Shown piece after piece: positions 12,556 to 32,035 of a DNA stretch of 34,767 nt. The DNA lies in the IMG/VR virus record IMGVR_UViG_3300004180_000003, positions 1-34,767 of that record. One strand, written 5' to 3'. Source of the DNA: a virus. Each line of letters opens with the position of its first letter. The stretch's first letter is position 1. The translations under genes and the position numbers were made by a program. The notes under the pieces were generated by a model, which made no database searches, was not told the origin of the DNA, and was given only the letters and a program-made list of their open reading frames with translations.

Positions 12556-13107
12556 ATGACAAAAAACACCCCACATACATTAAGCCCTGCCGGGTTAACC
12601 CTGATTAAAGACAGCGAAAAACTGTGTTTGCAGGCGTACCTGTGCCCAGCTAATAAAGTCACTATCGGCTATGGCCATGTGATTATGCCCAACTTGGATG
12701 CCGGGCTGTTTAACATGGATAAACAGGCGCTAGCGCCCACCATTGCTGATTGCCAGTTGCGCAGAGCCATTACCCCGTTTGCTAAACAATGGCTAAAAAT
12801 CACTATTGAGCAAGCCGAATTACTGCTGGCTAAAGACACCAGACAAAGCCAGTTGTTTATTGCCTCCGTTACCCATGTTGACCTTACTCAGGGCCAGTTT
12901 GATGCCTTGTGCAGCCTGGTATTTAACATCGGCCAGGGCAATTATGCACAATCAACCATCCGTAAACTGGTTAATGCCGGGGACTTTAGCAGTGCTGCTG
13001 CTGAGTTTGACCGCTGGATTTACACCACTAAAAACGGCAAAAAAGAGCCGCAACCCGGATTAATCACCCGCCGCGCTAAAGAGCGCGCCTTGTTTGAGGG
13101 TTTATGA
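12556..13107 (+). CDS. Endolysin, GH24-type lysozyme
   Basis: A 183-residue muramidase-like protein. The catalytic signature is E21, C30, T36 in SEKLCLQAYLCPANKVTIGY, the E-8-C-5-T variant of the T4/P22 lysozyme triad, followed by the usual GYGH. Later marks are LTQGQFDALCSLVFNIG and the C-terminal GLITRRAKERALFEG. No signal peptide, so release depends on the holin at 13573. No good ribosome binding site or -35/-10 pair lies in the 72 bases upstream, fitting activator-dependent late transcription; a small GCCGC/GCGGC hairpin (12538-12555) lies just before the ATG. Confidence 0.92.
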   Translation: MTKNTPHTLSPAGLTLIKDSEKLCLQAYLCPANKVTIGYGHVIMPNLDAGLFNMDKQALAPTIADCQLRRAITPFAKQWLKITIEQAELLLAKDTRQSQLFIASVTHVDLTQGQFDALCSLVFNIGQGNYAQSTIRKLVNAGDFSSAAAEFDRWIYTTKNGKKEPQPGLITRRAKERALFEGL

Positions 13108-23804: not shown

Positions 23805-24153
23805 ATATGCCCAATTTGCCGACTGTATCGATCCGGCGCTGACTGTATCAGCACTTAATTTAACCGAGGCTGATGTCTACGTCGATTTGGCGCTGGGCAA
23901 TATCGGCATTACCCCCACGCAGGCGTTATTGATCACTCTGCCCAATGCCGCATTAACGGCCATTGCCGCTACCTGGGCCAAACGCCTGGCAGCGATCGAG
24001 GGCAGCATGGGCGACAACTCATTATTAATGGACAAGGCCAGGCAATACCAAACCAATGCCGAAAGCCTGGTTAAACAACTAAATCGCACGGCGCTGGGCT
24101 TATCCGAGCCCACCGGCACCGGTTACGGATCACTGACCCTCGGGAGGGGCTAA
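23797..24153 (+). CDS. Probable head-tail connector protein
   Basis: A 118-residue helical protein: LTEADVYVDLALGNIGITPT, then LTAIAATWAKRLAAIEGSMG and DKARQYQTNAESLVKQLNRT. The pattern of short helices and its place between gp10-like and tail genes suggest a gp6-type connector; this is inference. Stop and next start share a base (TAATG). Confidence 0.62.
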   Translation: MPKYAQFADCIDPALTVSALNLTEADVYVDLALGNIGITPTQALLITLPNAALTAIAATWAKRLAAIEGSMGDNSLLMDKARQYQTNAESLVKQLNRTALGLSEPTGTGYGSLTLGRG

Positions 24154-25667
24154 TGAAAAAAATTACAGCACCAGAAAGATCAACCGAACTATTACGCGCC
24201 GGGCAAGTGATGACCGTGACCGGCCAAGCGCTGGTCGAGTGGTTTGGCGAGGGTGGGGTTAAAAAAGGCCCTGTTGCGGTTAATGGCAGCAAGGCTATCG
24301 GGCCATTTGGCAGTGATGTGCAGCTGGTTATTTCAGCGTTAGCGGGGGTGGTTGGTTTTGAGGCGGGGGAGGTGGATGCTGAGGCGTTGGTTAGTTATGT
24401 TGGTAGTGGCACGTCATCAATATCTCGCACCATCCCGCCTAGTTTTGTGGACACAACAGACGTTATTGCTGATTACACAATAGTTGTTGCTAATACTGGT
24501 ACAGCGACAGAGTCGACTGATTTTGCTAAATCATCAACCAAAACTATCTGGTTAGATACACCCACCAAAAACCCAACCGCCAACGCATATATACAGGCTG
24601 ATAATAAATCGGTTGATTTTAGTGATGAAACCACCCCTATTTTAGTAGCATATTACACCCCATACATACCTGCTGGGTCATCAGTAGCATTAGCGTTTTG
24701 GGCATCAAATCAATCCGCGTTAGGTAGTGCTAACAGGTCAAGCTGCGCGCTAACAGCGGCAGAGAACATAGGCTGGAACATTGCACCTATTGATAAACGT
24801 GCTACTGGTAACGCACCGTACGCCCCTAATTTGGTGCAAAATGGTACTGCAGCGCTTAATAACGCTAACCCAGTTGTATCATATAGGGCACAACTTTCAG
24901 GAAGCACAACAAGCAACAGGCAGGTATATATTGACAGCATTACAACTGGTTACAGAGAGCGCCCTAAAATTATCTTAACACTTGACGACAATCTTAAAAC
25001 AGGCTACACAATAGGCTATGTTGAGGCCAGAAAACGCAATATAAAAAATAGCTTTTTTTATATTTACGACGCCATTGGCAACCCAGGCAATATGACCGCT
25101 GCACAAATGCAACAGATTAAAAGCGACCCATCTGCATATTGCGGGTTACACGGCGCTAAGCGATTTGATGGGGCAGGTAGTGGAGCTGGTACTACGCCGA
25201 TTGGTGAGATGACGCGCAATATTAATGGCCTTAAAAATCTAGGCTTATCTGATTGTCGTTACATGGCCTGGCCCGAGGGGCAGATACGGCCAGATGACAG
25301 AAGTGTTTGTTTAGATGTGGCAGCGTCGCTAGGGATTGTAGGTGCTAGAAATACTCAACATGGATACAATTTCACATACAACGGCTGTTATGAGCCGTTG
25401 GCAATGCGGGCCGTGGGACTAAATAATCTTAATACCTTAGCTCAAGTCAAGGCCGCCATTGATACAGCGATTGAATGGGGCACATCTTTAGTTTTATACG
25501 GTCATGGATTTGGTGCTGTAACTGATACATTGACATGGATTACCCAGGATTATCTTGATCTTTTAGATTACATCGCACTAAAACGATCGCTCGGACTTAT
25601 TGATGATATGCGCTACGACGAGTGGATGGATGGGCTGACTAGCCCTGTAACACCAACCAGGTTTTAA
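24153..25667 (+). CDS. Virion protein with polysaccharide-deacetylase (NodB-like) domain
   Basis: A 504-residue protein. Residues 1-85 look like a particle-binding head; 90-265 are beta-rich; about 270-490 resemble the NodB/carbohydrate esterase 4 domain: motif 1 TLDD (276-279), motif 2 reduced to LHGAKRFDG (332-340), motif 3 MAWPEGQI (371-378), and YGHGF (449-453) as the late His motif. Metal-binding normally needs Asp plus two His; the second His of motif 2 is not plain, so activity is uncertain. It could trim host surface polysaccharide on adsorption. The order (before the tail tube) is unusual for a fibre. Confidence 0.72.
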   Translation: MKKITAPERSTELLRAGQVMTVTGQALVEWFGEGGVKKGPVAVNGSKAIGPFGSDVQLVISALAGVVGFEAGEVDAEALVSYVGSGTSSISRTIPPSFVDTTDVIADYTIVVANTGTATESTDFAKSSTKTIWLDTPTKNPTANAYIQADNKSVDFSDETTPILVAYYTPYIPAGSSVALAFWASNQSALGSANRSSCALTAAENIGWNIAPIDKRATGNAPYAPNLVQNGTAALNNANPVVSYRAQLSGSTTSNRQVYIDSITTGYRERPKIILTLDDNLKTGYTIGYVEARKRNIKNSFFYIYDAIGNPGNMTAAQMQQIKSDPSAYCGLHGAKRFDGAGSGAGTTPIGEMTRNINGLKNLGLSDCRYMAWPEGQIRPDDRSVCLDVAASLGIVGARNTQHGYNFTYNGCYEPLAMRAVGLNNLNTLAQVKAAIDTAIEWGTSLVLYGHGFGAVTDTLTWITQDYLDLLDYIALKRSLGLIDDMRYDEWMDGLTSPVTPTRF

Positions 25668-26219: not shown

Positions 26220-26378
26220 ATGCAAGATCAATACACTGGCCAGGCAGGCACTTTCGTCGTCGATCCTATCTCGGGCACGCGCATCCCGTATGACGAGTGG
26301 ATTGCACAAGAGGCTGCAAAGGCGGCCGAAGTAAAGCCTAAAAAATCCCCCAAACACGACACTGAGGAGTCAATCTAA
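26220..26378 (+). CDS. 52-residue protein before tail tube gene
   Basis: ATG 26220 after TAGGAG. The product starts MQDQYTGQAGTFVVDPISGT, continues RIPYDEWIAQEAAKAA and ends with a lysine-rich then acidic tail. Its TAA shares a base with the tail tube ATG. Small proteins of this kind precede tail tube genes in several siphoviruses; function unknown. Confidence 0.66.
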   Translation: MQDQYTGQAGTFVVDPISGTRIPYDEWIAQEAAKAAEVKPKKSPKHDTEESI

Positions 26379-27556
26379 TGGCATTAGCACAACGCAAGCG
26401 CGTTATTTTGGTTAAACAAGAGGCTACTTACGGCACTGATGCTACGCCGGTTGCAGCCGATGCCGTACTGTGCAGTAATTTAAACCTAAACCCAATTGAG
26501 GGTAGCGAAGTTGCCCGTGATTTTATCCGGCCGTTTTTTGGTGGCTCCGGCTCCATCCGCGTGGAGAATTACTCAACCCTTGATTTCGAAACCGAATTGG
26601 CCGGTTCCGGCGCTGCTGGAACTGCGCCAGAATGGGGCGCTTTGTTAAAGTCGGCAAACTGGACCGAGACAGTGACAGCGGCAGCGATTACCGGCACTGC
26701 GCAAGTGGGCGGGTCAACTACCAGCATTAAATTGGCGGCCGCCGCCTCTGCGGTTGATGATTTTTACACGGGCATGACGGTTAGTTTAACCGCCGGTACC
26801 GGCAGTGGCCAGGCGGGCGAAATCATCGGTTACGTGGGATCAACCAAGATTGCGACTATTGCTAAAGCTTGGGCTGTGGCTCCAGACGCTACCAGCACCT
26901 ACAGCATCGGCGCTAACGTTATCTATACGCCTAACAGCAATTTCGGTACGGCCACGGCTAACACCTCATCATCGATCTATTTTAATATTGATGGCGTGCG
27001 TCATGTATTGCTGGGCGCTCGCGGTACCTGTAGCTTTGAGATGTCAGCCAAGCAAATCCCAAAAATCAAATGGAAATTCACCGGCTTGCTGGGCACGATT
27101 GCTGACGCCACCTTGCCAGCAGCCGATTTTACCGGCTGGCAAACACCGGCTACGGTATCTACCGCTAACACGACCGATTTAAATTTGCTGGGCTATAACG
27201 GCGCGGTGCTGCAAACGCTTAATTTTGATATTGCAAACCAAGTGATCTATCGGCAATTGGTGGGTGCAGAGTCAGTGCTGATTACCGATCGTAAACCGGT
27301 TGGAAATGTCTCCATTGAGGCGGTAACGGTAGCGACAAAAGACTGGTGGACGCTAGCGAAAAATGCCACTACAGGGCCTTTTGCAGTAAAGCACGGCCAA
27401 ACGGCTGGCAACATCGTTGGTGTTACCGCACCTAAAGTGCAGTTAACCCAACCCAAATACAGCGACAGCGACGGCGTAACGATGATGGACTTCGGTCTGG
27501 CATTTATCCCCTCCGGCGCATCCGGCAACGATGAAATCCGCATTTGCGTTAAATAA
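26378..27556 (+). CDS. Major tail tube protein
   Basis: A 392-residue protein. N-terminal KRVILVKQEATYGTDATPVA and NLNPIEGSEVARDFIRPFFG are typical of siphovirus tail tube subunits. Residues about 112-170 hold an inserted beta repeat module (GMTVSLTAGTGSGQAGEIIG) seen in many phage structural proteins. C-terminal DSDGVTMMDFGLAFIPSG completes the tube fold. No sheath gene nearby, so the tail is non-contractile. Confidence 0.87.
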   Translation: MALAQRKRVILVKQEATYGTDATPVAADAVLCSNLNLNPIEGSEVARDFIRPFFGGSGSIRVENYSTLDFETELAGSGAAGTAPEWGALLKSANWTETVTAAAITGTAQVGGSTTSIKLAAAASAVDDFYTGMTVSLTAGTGSGQAGEIIGYVGSTKIATIAKAWAVAPDATSTYSIGANVIYTPNSNFGTATANTSSSIYFNIDGVRHVLLGARGTCSFEMSAKQIPKIKWKFTGLLGTIADATLPAADFTGWQTPATVSTANTTDLNLLGYNGAVLQTLNFDIANQVIYRQLVGAESVLITDRKPVGNVSIEAVTVATKDWWTLAKNATTGPFAVKHGQTAGNIVGVTAPKVQLTQPKYSDSDGVTMMDFGLAFIPSGASGNDEIRICVK

Positions 27557-27565
27557 GGAACAGCT

Positions 27566-27931
27566 ATGGCTTTTAAACTAAACACATCCAGTACCTATAA
27601 ATACCCGGTTAAATTTGCAATTGTTAGCGAGCATGGCGGCACCATTGACCAGGAGTTTACCGCGATTTTTAAGCGCCTGGATCGTGCGCAAGTGGTCGAT
27701 TTGCGTAACCGCCACCAAGGCGACAGCGGCAATAGTATTGATGAGGTATTGGATGCCGACGTTGCCTATATCACTGAGTTTTTAACCGGGTGGGAGGGGG
27801 TCGATTTAAACGGCGAAACCGAATTTAACCAAGACAATTTGCGGCTGTTATTAAAGTCCCTGCCTAAGATCAATATCTTTATTTCAAGCGCCTTTTTTGA
27901 CAGCGATGGGGCGGTTGCAAGAAAAAACTAA
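27566..27931 (+). CDS. Tail assembly chaperone, short form (gpG-like)
   Basis: A 121-residue protein upstream of the tape measure, start after AAGGAACAG. It has TIDQEFTAIFKRLDRAQVVD, then LDADVAYITEFLTGWEGVDL and ends ARKN just after a slippery A AAA AAC. In lambda-like tails, gpG coats the tape measure during assembly and a fraction of ribosomes shift to make the longer gpG-T. The same arrangement is seen here. Confidence 0.85.
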   Translation: MAFKLNTSSTYKYPVKFAIVSEHGGTIDQEFTAIFKRLDRAQVVDLRNRHQGDSGNSIDEVLDADVAYITEFLTGWEGVDLNGETEFNQDNLRLLLKSLPKINIFISSAFFDSDGAVARKN

Positions 27932-28278
27932 TTGATTCCGCCTTGTATTGGGCACAAGGCGGCAAAGATGACGGTAAGGCGCTGGCAGATGACGCCGCTA
28001 TTTTAGGGTTGATTTTGCCAGTATCAGAGCCAGAAAAAGACCCTGATTTTTATGTATTGCCGGAAAACTGGCCCACAGTGATGGTGTTTTTGGCGTTAGG
28101 AACGGCATGGCGGATTGATGGCATGAGCGGGGTCTGGAAGGGCCTGGATTATCCATCAGTTAAAACCGTAATGTGGGCACAGGGCGTTAAAAAAGCCGAT
28201 CGCAAAGGCGTATTTAACGGCCTGCAAATCATGGAGCGGGCGGTAATTGATTTAATCAACAGCAAGCTTAAGAAATGA
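27566..28278 (+). CDS. Tail assembly chaperone, -1 frameshift fusion (gpG-T-like)
   Basis: A predicted 237-residue fusion: the first 121 codons, then a shift at 27922-27928 into the -1 frame from 27928, adding LIDSALYWAQGGKDDGK and the rest. The downstream part is of the DUF1799 type (DAAILGLILPVSEPEKD, then WPTVMVFLALGTAWRIDGMS). The -1 frame is open from 27901 and has no ATG near its start, only a TTG at 27943, so independent translation is unlikely. A helper for tape measure folding. Confidence 0.83.
27922..27962 (+). promoter_or_regulatory. Programmed -1 frameshift signal
   Basis: Slippery heptamer A AAA AAC (27922-27928), phased to the upstream frame; nine-base spacer (27929-27937) with the zero-frame TAA directly after the heptamer; then a 9-bp perfect stem CCGCCTTGT (27938-27946) and ACAAGGCGG (27954-27962) with a 7-base loop. 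Confidence 0.88.
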
Positions 28279-28279
28279 T

Positions 28280-31200
28280 ATGAATAAAGAGTTAGGGCTA
28301 AAACTTATCATTACTGGTGATGGCAAGGTAGCGGTGCAGGCATCTAAAGAGGTGCAGGCAGCGTTGGCTGGGGTTGCTACTGAATCTAAAAAGGCTGGCA
28401 ATTCATCAGCCACAATGGCCAATGAGTTTGAAAAAAATAGCCGCTCTGCCGGTAGTGCTGTCGATGGTTTAGGATCAAAAATAAAGGGTTTAGGTATAAC
28501 AGCCGGTGCAACATTTACGGCGATTAAGCTCGTTGGTGTAACTAGAGAGTTTGATATTTTAAACGCCGGTTTAAAAACAGCGACTGGATCAGCCGATCTT
28601 GCCGCTAGCGCCTTTGTAGCCATTCAGGATTTTGCAGCTTCGACACCATATGCGCTGCAGCAATCAGTCGATGCCTTTGTTAAATTAAAAAACTATGGTT
28701 TAGACCCATCAGAAAGAGCCCTTAGATCTTACGGCAATACGGCGTCATCACTCGGCAAAGATTTGTCGCAGATGATCGAGGCTGTTGCCGATGCTTCAAC
28801 TGGCGAAATGGAGCGGCTTAAAGAGTTCGGTATCCGCGCAAGTATCCAAGGCAACCAGGTCGCCTTTACATTTAAAGGCGTTAAAACAACGGTTAAAAAT
28901 GAAAGTGAGGCAATACAGGATTATCTAATAAAGCTGGGCGAGAATAATTTTGCCACGGCTATGCAAGATCGTATGAACTCGCTGGATGGGATACTGAGCA
29001 ACCTGGGTGATGAATGGGATACGCTGTTTTTAAATATCAGCAAGCAAGGGATTGGGGATGTGATATCTGCATCAGCTTCAGTCGCTGTTGATGGTCTCGG
29101 CGGTATCAATGACTATTTAGAGTCCGGTATTTTTGAGCAAGATTTAGCGGTTGTATCTAGTGCATTTGCAGGGTTCGGCGATGATGTTGATGGCGAGATG
29201 TCGCTATTGACTGACTCCGTATCATCGTATTTTGATGAGATTGGCTTGAGTGGGCAAAAGACCGCTGGGTTTTTAGAGCGAGAGTTTGCGGCATCATTGC
29301 AAAACACCAGGTCTTTTATAAAGATCATGATAGTGGAGGCCGCGTCGGCAGCGGATAAGGTAGGGGAGTTTTTCAAAAGCGAAAACAACTCAATGGCCCC
29401 GCCTGGGCAAAAACGTGACGATAAAATCGCGGCTATTGATAAAAACAGGATGGACAGCATTTCGTCAATTTTGGACGAGCACAATGCAGCTATCGCCAAA
29501 ACTAACGAGCTGATTACAGCTACTGCCAAGTTAAGAGCTGAGCACCAAAAACAGCGCGAGGAGGGCCGGAAAACGTCTGAAGACCGGCTAGCGCAGTTTA
29601 AAAATAATATAGCCGCTGCTGTCCAGGATGATCCTAAGGCAAAAAAGGCGGCGGAATCAGCAGCTAAACATGCTAAGGAACAGGCTGACGCGGCGATTAA
29701 GAAGCTAAACGACCGCGCCCAAGCCATGCGCGAAGGCGCAAACCCTGATGTTGCTTTTATCGCCAACATCGAAGAATACACAGCCGCCTACAATCGCGGG
29801 GCAATCTCCATCAGTGATTATGTATTCTGGCTGACTAAGTTGGATGATACCCGCCAGCAAGCTAATGGCGGCACGCCGGATACCGGCTGGGCGGATATTA
29901 CTGCGATACAAGACGAGGTATCGCTGCAGCGTAGCCAAGACGCGACTAAGGGCGTTGATGATTACGTTAAATCCCTGGACAGGGCCAAAGACAGCGCGTC
30001 GGCATTGAGTGATGTGTCGTCTTCTATATTTGATGGTGCCCTGGGTGGGGTTAATTTAATCGCCGGGGCATTTAATACCCTAACGAAAAGCATTGCCGAT
30101 ACTACTAAAGAGCTGGAGGCCAATAGCGCCGCGCGTATCGCTAATGATGCAGAGCCGGAATCTGCTAAAAAGAGCGCCGATAGGATAAAGATCGCCAATG
30201 AAGAAAAGCGTTTGCAGAATGAGCAATTAAAAAACTCATTGTCTGGCATTCGCCAAATTTCCAGCGCCACGGCCAGCATGTTTAAGGAAAATACCAACGC
30301 GCGGCGGGCGTTTAACGTTATCGCGTTGGCGGCCAGTGTTACCGAGCGCATGGCCGACATCGCCGGGTTAGGCATTAAGGCGGCCTCGGCAGTGTTGGAG
30401 CAAGGCAAGGGTGAGCCATATACCGCTTTTGCGCGGATGGCAGCGATGGCAGCTATTGTGGGCAGTGTGTTGTCTGCGGCCGGTGCCGGGACGTTTCAAT
30501 TCGGTGGCAGTTCCGTGCCTAAAGGCCAGGTTCCTACCTCGCCGGATTCCGGTACTGTGCTGGGTGATCCATCCGCAAAGTCTGAGTCGATCAGTAAAAC
30601 CTATACCCTTTTGCAAGACATTCATGCTACTGAGTACCGCGAGTTGCGGGGGATTAATAGTGGCGTTGCGGCCATGAATAAGGGCATTACTGACTCGATT
30701 ACTAAGCTGTTTCAGGCGGGTGGTTTACAAACGCCAAATATCTCTGGCTTAGGTACTAAGATAAGCGGGATTGGCTCATTTTTAACCTCTATTGACCCTG
30801 TTAATAAGATGGGGTTAGATCCAATAGGTAAATTTATCCTGAAGGGGCTTTTCGGTACTACTAAAACATCTATCACCGGTGGCGGCATCTATGCCGGTGG
30901 CAATTCATTGGCGTCTATATTAAATGGTGGCGACATCTCCGCCGCTCAATACACCGAGATAACTAAAACTAAGAAAAGCTGGTTCAGCAAGTCTTCAAAA
31001 GTGTCCGAGGTGATGGGGCCGGTTAATGCCGACTTTCAAGATTCGTTATCCGAGATCTTTCGCGGTATGGGTACATCTATGCTGGCGATGTCTACTGAGT
31101 TTGGTAACGACATGACTAGCTCTATCAATAATTACGTCATCCCTAAGTTAAAGATTAGCCTGCACGGCCTGTCGTCTGACGACATGATTAAAACCCTAAA

Positions 31201-32035
31201 CAACGCGCTATCTACCCAACTCGATACCATGACCAGCGCCATTTTTGGCAGCATGATTAAAAAGTACCAAAAGTTAGGCGAGGGCATGTTCGAAACCGCT
31301 ACCCGGCTGGTGTCCGAAAAGGCAATTGTGCTGGATGCGATCGACCTGGTCGGCAGTAGTTTTAAGGGCGATGCGATCGATATGGCTGATGGTCTGGTAC
31401 AACTCGCGGGCGGTATTAAAGAGTTTCAAGCGCAATTTGATGACTATTACCGCAAGTTTTACAGTGAGAGCGAGCAGCTGGCCAACACCACGCGCCGCCT
31501 CACAGCAAGCTTAGCGGATATGAATATCACACTGCCAGACAGCCGCAACGCTTACCGCGACCTGGTCAATGCCCAACAATTGGACACCGAGGCAGGCCGT
31601 GAGCGTTACGACCAACTGTTAAAGCTCTCTACGGCCGCAGACACGTATTACGCCAGCATGGAGAAATTGCGTGAGTCGATGAAGCTGTTGACACAAGATA
31701 ATTTCAAAAGCGCGGTGGATTACAAGCGTTATTTGGGGCTGGCCAGCCTGTCGGGTATTAAAGCTGCAACCGATCTACTGCCTGCTAATCCCAACACAAC
31801 GTTTATGCCCACCGGTAGCCCTAACCAGTTGTTGCCTGGTATTGCCAGCACGCCAATGACCACTGCATTTATGACCGTTGCAGAGAGCAATAACGCCGTG
31901 GCCAATGAGGTAAAGCAACTGCGTATCGAGCAACAAGCGCAAGCGCTGGCTATCGCCAAGAACACCGCGGATATGGCAAAACTATTGAAACGCTGGGAAG
32001 GTGATGGCCTGCCTGCCACGCGGGTTATTGCATGA
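28280..32035 (+). CDS. Tail tape measure protein
   Basis: A 1251-residue protein. N-terminal tape-measure domain at about 65-190 (REFDILNAGLKTATGSADLA, then FAASTPYALQQSVDAFVKLK and MIEAVADASTGEMERLKEFG). Long coiled coils near 395-500 and 615-665; a hydrophobic stretch around 710-740 (FARMAAMAAIVGSVLSAAGA) that may insert in the host membrane. At 1.5 angstrom per residue the tail would be about 185-190 nm. It starts two bases after the chaperone fusion stop. Confidence 0.93.
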   Translation: MNKELGLKLIITGDGKVAVQASKEVQAALAGVATESKKAGNSSATMANEFEKNSRSAGSAVDGLGSKIKGLGITAGATFTAIKLVGVTREFDILNAGLKTATGSADLAASAFVAIQDFAASTPYALQQSVDAFVKLKNYGLDPSERALRSYGNTASSLGKDLSQMIEAVADASTGEMERLKEFGIRASIQGNQVAFTFKGVKTTVKNESEAIQDYLIKLGENNFATAMQDRMNSLDGILSNLGDEWDTLFLNISKQGIGDVISASASVAVDGLGGINDYLESGIFEQDLAVVSSAFAGFGDDVDGEMSLLTDSVSSYFDEIGLSGQKTAGFLEREFAASLQNTRSFIKIMIVEAASAADKVGEFFKSENNSMAPPGQKRDDKIAAIDKNRMDSISSILDEHNAAIAKTNELITATAKLRAEHQKQREEGRKTSEDRLAQFKNNIAAAVQDDPKAKKAAESAAKHAKEQADAAIKKLNDRAQAMREGANPDVAFIANIEEYTAAYNRGAISISDYVFWLTKLDDTRQQANGGTPDTGWADITAIQDEVSLQRSQDATKGVDDYVKSLDRAKDSASALSDVSSSIFDGALGGVNLIAGAFNTLTKSIADTTKELEANSAARIANDAEPESAKKSADRIKIANEEKRLQNEQLKNSLSGIRQISSATASMFKENTNARRAFNVIALAASVTERMADIAGLGIKAASAVLEQGKGEPYTAFARMAAMAAIVGSVLSAAGAGTFQFGGSSVPKGQVPTSPDSGTVLGDPSAKSESISKTYTLLQDIHATEYRELRGINSGVAAMNKGITDSITKLFQAGGLQTPNISGLGTKISGIGSFLTSIDPVNKMGLDPIGKFILKGLFGTTKTSITGGGIYAGGNSLASILNGGDISAAQYTEITKTKKSWFSKSSKVSEVMGPVNADFQDSLSEIFRGMGTSMLAMSTEFGNDMTSSINNYVIPKLKISLHGLSSDDMIKTLNNALSTQLDTMTSAIFGSMIKKYQKLGEGMFETATRLVSEKAIVLDAIDLVGSSFKGDAIDMADGLVQLAGGIKEFQAQFDDYYRKFYSESEQLANTTRRLTASLADMNITLPDSRNAYRDLVNAQQLDTEAGRERYDQLLKLSTAADTYYASMEKLRESMKLLTQDNFKSAVDYKRYLGLASLSGIKAATDLLPANPNTTFMPTGSPNQLLPGIASTPMTTAFMTVAESNNAVANEVKQLRIEQQAQALAIAKNTADMAKLLKRWEGDGLPATRVIA

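Follow-up and report, generated by a model that had tools for sequence, protein, structure and literature searches.

The plus strand of the window analyzed here, the whole 34,767-nt stretch of the viral record IMGVR_UViG_3300004180_000003, encodes a siphophage-like set of tail genes in which a tail protein gene is followed by a G-like gene, an overlapping -1 frame, and a tape measure gene. Two overlapping frames sit between the tail protein and tape measure genes, as the lambda G/G-T type of tail chaperone locus requires. The features of the junction and its flanking genes are as follows:

26378..27556, plus strand: probable major tail (tube) protein gene, directly 5' of the G-like gene (PHROG 290 "minor tail protein", E 8.5e-33)
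27566..27931, plus strand: G-like gene coding for a putative 121-aa tail assembly chaperone, ATG start and TAA stop (PF08748 match)
27908..27911, plus strand: GGGG, a possible but weak SD-like upstream stimulator 10 nt 5' of the heptamer (anti-SD energy)
27922..27928, plus strand: candidate slippery heptamer A_AAA_AAC, in phase with the G gene (sequence; conserved at synonymous positions)
27929..27931, plus strand: zero-frame TAA stop abutting the heptamer (adjacency in 35 of 37 clusters vs. 10.7 expected)
27929..27937, plus strand: spacer of 9 nt from heptamer to stem (sequence)
27938..27946, plus strand: 5' arm of the stem, CCGCCTTGT (folding; compensatory changes in relatives)
27954..27962, plus strand: 3' arm of the stem, ACAAGGCGG, with the loop at 27947-27953 (folding; relatives compared)
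27928..28278, plus strand: predicted T-like extension in the -1 frame, 116 residues (LIDSALYW...), ending at TGA 28276-28278 (PF08809, PHROG 680)
28280..32035, plus strand: tape measure gene of 1251 aa directly downstream of the T-like frame (PHROG 24709 and others, E down to 4.9e-54)

The sequence features listed by the first-pass annotation were all recovered. The heptamer is in phase directly 5' of the G stop, with the zero-frame codons AGA AAA AAC TAA at the junction, and the 9-base spacer leads into a stem of 9 perfect base pairs closing a 7-nt loop. No stop interrupts the -1 frame between 27901 and 28275, and no ATG lies near the start of T, the first one in this frame being at approximately 28081 inside the DUF1799 domain and preceded by TTG codons at 27943, 28009, and 28015 as the first possible starts. 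The two product lengths given by that annotation also agree with the open frames, which predict proteins of 121 aa and of 121 + 116 = 237 aa joined at ARKN-LIDSA (...N-LIDSALYWAQGGK). Choosing the G start by SD strength picked internal starts at some loci, including position 27692 in the window; this automatic pick was set aside and the ATG at 27566 was used. The tape measure gene additionally matched the Pfam model TMP_3 at E 7e-9, which lies under the cut-off of that model, and the place of the 26378..27556 gene in the order, as for lambda V, is consistent with a product that is probably the major tail (tube) protein.

Two further observations were made elsewhere in the window. A 504-aa ORF between the neck and tail genes (24153-25667) contains a stretch, ILTLDDNLKTG ... 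LVLYGHGF, resembling NodB-type polysaccharide deacetylases, and no Pfam model matched this ORF at E 0.01. The phage lysozyme gene (PF00959) has an in-phase GGGTTTA before its stop (13098-13107) and an 83-aa ORF in the -1 frame; this candidate frameshift site was rejected because an ATG at 13104, which overlaps the stop, gives the ORF a start of its own, and the junction is thus an ordinary overlap.

Profile searches identified both proteins of the junction. The 121-residue G protein matched PF08748 (Phage_TAC_4) at E 9.7e-10 with 39.2 bits (gathering cut-off 21.1), while the T extension matched PF08809 (DUF1799) at E 3.2e-18 with 66.2 bits (cut-off 26) and PHROG 680 at E 2.2e-20. DUF1799 was matched by all 41 T proteins scanned, and Phage_TAC_4 was matched at E 0.01 by 14 of the 28 aligned G proteins, a fraction that counts against the chaperone assignment. 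The AlphaFold model of G had a mean pLDDT of 76, and its top three VIA-align matches were 3fgx (Z 4.8), 2ob9 (Z 4.5), and 3klu (Z 3.4), all low Z scores below the level at which such a match stands alone; Foldseek paired the model with 2ob9 at E 0.34. The entry 2ob9 is the HK97 tail assembly chaperone, and all three entries fall within the tail assembly chaperone structural set; the matches of the modeled structure support the chaperone identity, short of proof. The T model was confident (pLDDT 88) and gave no structural match in the fold search. Solved structures searched by sequence with the G and T profiles yielded no credible match, and NCBIfam held no model for either protein. DUF1799 is considered here to be a T-like domain, i.e., the putative frameshift-made extension of a Phage_TAC_4 chaperone.

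Within the window the elements of the signal differ in how far they depart from chance. The AAAAAAC motif is not rare, occurring 20 times against 11.8 expected. Among the 60 plus-strand frames of at least 80 aa, only the heptamer at 27922 lay within the last 12 codons and opened onto a -1 frame exceeding 85 codons. The whole window contains five separate perfect hairpins of at least 9 bp, and the stem gave z -0.83 over 69 nt by dinucleotide shuffling and p = 0.027 (energy) and 0.023 (stem length) by synonymous-codon shuffling. With a p of about 0.02-0.03, the stem counts for little when taken alone, and the case from the window alone is moderate. The signal as a whole lies far beyond chance because of the comparative evidence across relatives.

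A near-identity DNA search among phages gave no match. Among cellular genomes, the nearest relative lay on a 36-kb contig of a Rhodocyclaceae MAG, the stretches shared within the searched region being 84-96% identical; the host is likely to be betaproteobacterial. DUF1799 loci were gathered by protein similarity rather than by the heptamer, and their junctions formed 38 clusters with T identities below 75% between clusters. All 38 clusters had an in-phase heptamer at the end of the G gene, comprising A_AAA_AAC (25), G_GGA_AAC (12), and A_AAA_AAG (1), and the codon choice at the heptamer given the encoded residues had a summed log10 P of -54.9 over the 38 clusters. Serratia phage Scapp, without such a heptamer, and locus L044, with A_AAA_AAC 36 nt 5' of the stop, stand outside this count. 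A family search independent of both heptamer and stem covered 398 genomes from a single phylum, the one to which the L010-carrying Rhodocyclaceae MAG belongs, and found DUF1799 in 30 of them. Twenty-nine loci from this search were examined (L065 was left out as the same place as L010), and 28 had an in-phase heptamer, 27 of them AAC-ended, with 24 of these (A_AAA_AAC or G_GGA_AAC) abutting the stop. The exception, L086, scores below the DUF1799 cut-off. This locus (G013, four similar copies) has a weak DUF1799 match and an adjoining overlapping frame without any X_XXY_YYZ heptamer. A minority branch (L020, L025, L026, and L077) has A_AAA_AAG 15-18 nt before the stop rather than the AAC-plus-stop form.

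The stop codon next to the heptamer, noticed by the first-pass annotation without its conservation, is itself constrained. In the clusters with AAC-ended heptamers the T frame starts with Leu, and the stop takes its first bases from this Leu codon. Codon usage given this Leu and the next base would place an adjacent stop at 10.7 of the 37 junctions, whereas it was observed at 35. If G follows, a stop arises from CTA alone, and this rare Leu codon was present in 13 of 13 cases vs. 1.1 expected. Therefore, the stop is maintained by selection and is not incidental. Such selection, read from codon choice, would mean either that the slip site is the required endpoint of the protein or that the stop takes part in the shift, and it poses the question of whether slippage occurs before or after translocation. 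One tentative proposal, which we regard as possible but doubtful, is that the heptamer-abutting stop is a working part of the signal, with slippage after translocation when the stop is in the A site and with the release factor level competing to tune the G:G-T ratio. If true, the DUF1799 family would represent natural stop-codon "intercodon" frameshifting in bacteria, on AAC-ended heptamers, which the usual E. coli rules would rate as weak. In a bacterial system, an "intercodon" stop reduced -1 frameshifting and allowed competition by RF2 (PMC4373837).

Comparison of relatives also pointed to RNA structure downstream of the heptamer. The hairpin region had a mean z of -1.11 +/- 0.21 against synonymous shuffles (38 clusters), compared with -0.01 to -0.34 in five control windows of the same genes; by group, z was -1.47 for A_AAA_AAC and -0.4 for G_GGA_AAC, i.e., little excess structure in the latter. 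Among the five closest sequences, three of the nine stem pairs were changed on both sides and still paired, with TTG/CAA in the window and the compensatory GAG/CTC in L005, and pairing was 89% in the true register vs. 24-58% in a slid pairing control. Two mid-stem pairs are broken in L010 and L014 (two of the four closest relatives), and more distant lineages have different stems in different registers. A downstream hairpin is favored at the junction and is the predicted stimulator; among lambda-type chaperone pairs, such a structure is helpful without being required in every member. The GGGG at 27908-27911 had an anti-SD energy z of -1.76 vs. synonymous shuffles; with a family mean of only -0.42 +/- 0.15, an SD-like upstream stimulator was discarded as a family feature.

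The locus is almost certainly, as judged from its sequence and those of its relatives, a programmed -1 ribosomal frameshift that yields two tail assembly chaperones from a single start. On AGA AAA AAC TAA most ribosomes would terminate, releasing G, the 121-residue chaperone. The stem-loop 9 nt downstream would slow a minority, which would slip back one base with Lys-tRNA and Asn-tRNA on A_AAA_AAC, continue with CTA ATT GAT, and add 116 further residues; the resulting 237-residue G-T fusion would carry DUF1799 at its C terminus. By analogy with lambda, we infer that the fusion is the minor product, that G would coat the tape measure and T recruit the tail tube protein, and that neither would stay in the virion. 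The frameshift and its lambda gpG/gpG-T parallel, both proposed by the first-pass annotation, gain support from the identity and order of the genes, the phase and the open frames, the heptamer conserved at synonymous sites in 38 clusters, the selected stop, the favored hairpin with its compensatory changes, and the lack of a conserved start in the downstream frame. Its description of the signal as "textbook" holds for the frameshift reading and less so for the site, as AAC-ended heptamers are far less slippery in E. coli than AAG-ended ones and A_AAA_AAC is a poor shift site in that species, which counts against the interpretation (PMC5009743).

T could instead be a separate gene that ribosomes reach by reinitiating after the G stop, at TTG 27943 or at some other internal codon. 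This TTG lies 12 nt past the stop, an ATG overlaps the stop in L005 (TAATG), and many deposited records begin T at an internal start codon. Such initiation is nevertheless quite unlikely because TTG 27943 is inside the stem and without an SD (+0.6 kcal/mol) and because starts are not conserved: their position, codon, and SD vary among relatives, several junctions are without any start within 120 nt, and residues 5' of any start (LxxAAxxW) are conserved. An independent start would also leave the conservation of AAA AAC and its phase unexplained. The six-A run of the heptamer might alternatively promote transcriptional slippage, by which one A would be added to some mRNAs and the frames joined, and this we consider less probable again, since the G_GGA_AAC relatives have no long homopolymer: in one third of the clusters no run exceeds three and slippage of this kind is not expected. 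The remaining clusters mostly have exactly AAAAAAC rather than longer runs, and the favored downstream hairpin also counts against it. The 20 copies of AAAAAAC in the window would fit chance or codon-bias features in a decayed or mis-assembled pair, a single gene having been broken by a true frameshift mutation. In dozens of independent phages and prophages the break falls at the same codon and both halves are intact; sequencing error or gene decay is thereby excluded for practical purposes.

Under the programmed frameshift, the protein set of this phage would comprise products of 121 and 237 residues with no free T protein, and DUF1799, which databases list as of unknown function and label hypothetical or "tail length tape measure protein," is given a putative role. 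The pattern also offers an annotation rule, namely A_AAA_AAC or G_GGA_AAC directly 5' of the chaperone stop. In the deposited records of L006, L007, and L049-L056, the DUF1799 gene begins at an internal start codon and the frameshift product was missed. As the lambda-type mechanism is already known, the additions made here are modest and consist of the family-wide rule (A/G heptamer ending in AAC plus stop) and the DUF1799 function. Among the papers searched, the only one to name DUF1799 says nothing of frameshifting.

Several known systems resemble the junction to differing degrees. The Serratia phages Scapp (MH553517) and Smarc2 (MT980831) carry DUF1799 relatives already annotated as tape measure chaperone frameshift products; Smarc2 shares the A_AAA_AAC-TGA arrangement, whereas Scapp is without an X_XXY_YYZ heptamer and has GAAAAGTATTAA at its site. 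The same heptamer as in the window works in E. coli in IS1, in a mobile-element gene without an established stimulator. Lambda gpG/gpG-T is alike in gene order, in the overlapping -1 frame, in a chaperone with a C-terminal extension, both encoded ahead of the tape measure gene, and in a slippery heptamer located shortly before the first gene ends; it differs in that its domains belong to families other than PF08748 and PF08809 seen here, and a downstream hairpin is present in the window. The lambda heptamer is G_GGA_AAG, AAG-ended and not abutted by the stop, compared with the AAC-ended heptamer and abutting stop found here, a layout in which the junction again departs from "textbook." Frameshifting in tail chaperone genes of the lambda type has been established for a long time (Levin 1993 and Xu 2004 and 2013, as cited in PMC5009743). 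In the Acinetobacter phages Loki (gp12/gp13) and IME_AB3, AAAAAAC likewise abuts the chaperone stop, a fusion has been predicted, and the genes are annotated as a joined CDS; they differ by an extra gene between chaperone and tape measure, the parts of the source consulted mention no hairpin, and the likeness drawn here is one of site layout (PMC5313236). The same two heptamers found across the DUF1799 family occur in the tape measure chaperone genes of the Caulobacter phages phiCbK (AAAAAAC) and Colossus (GGGAAAC), a likeness drawn at the level of the heptamers (PMC3556154).
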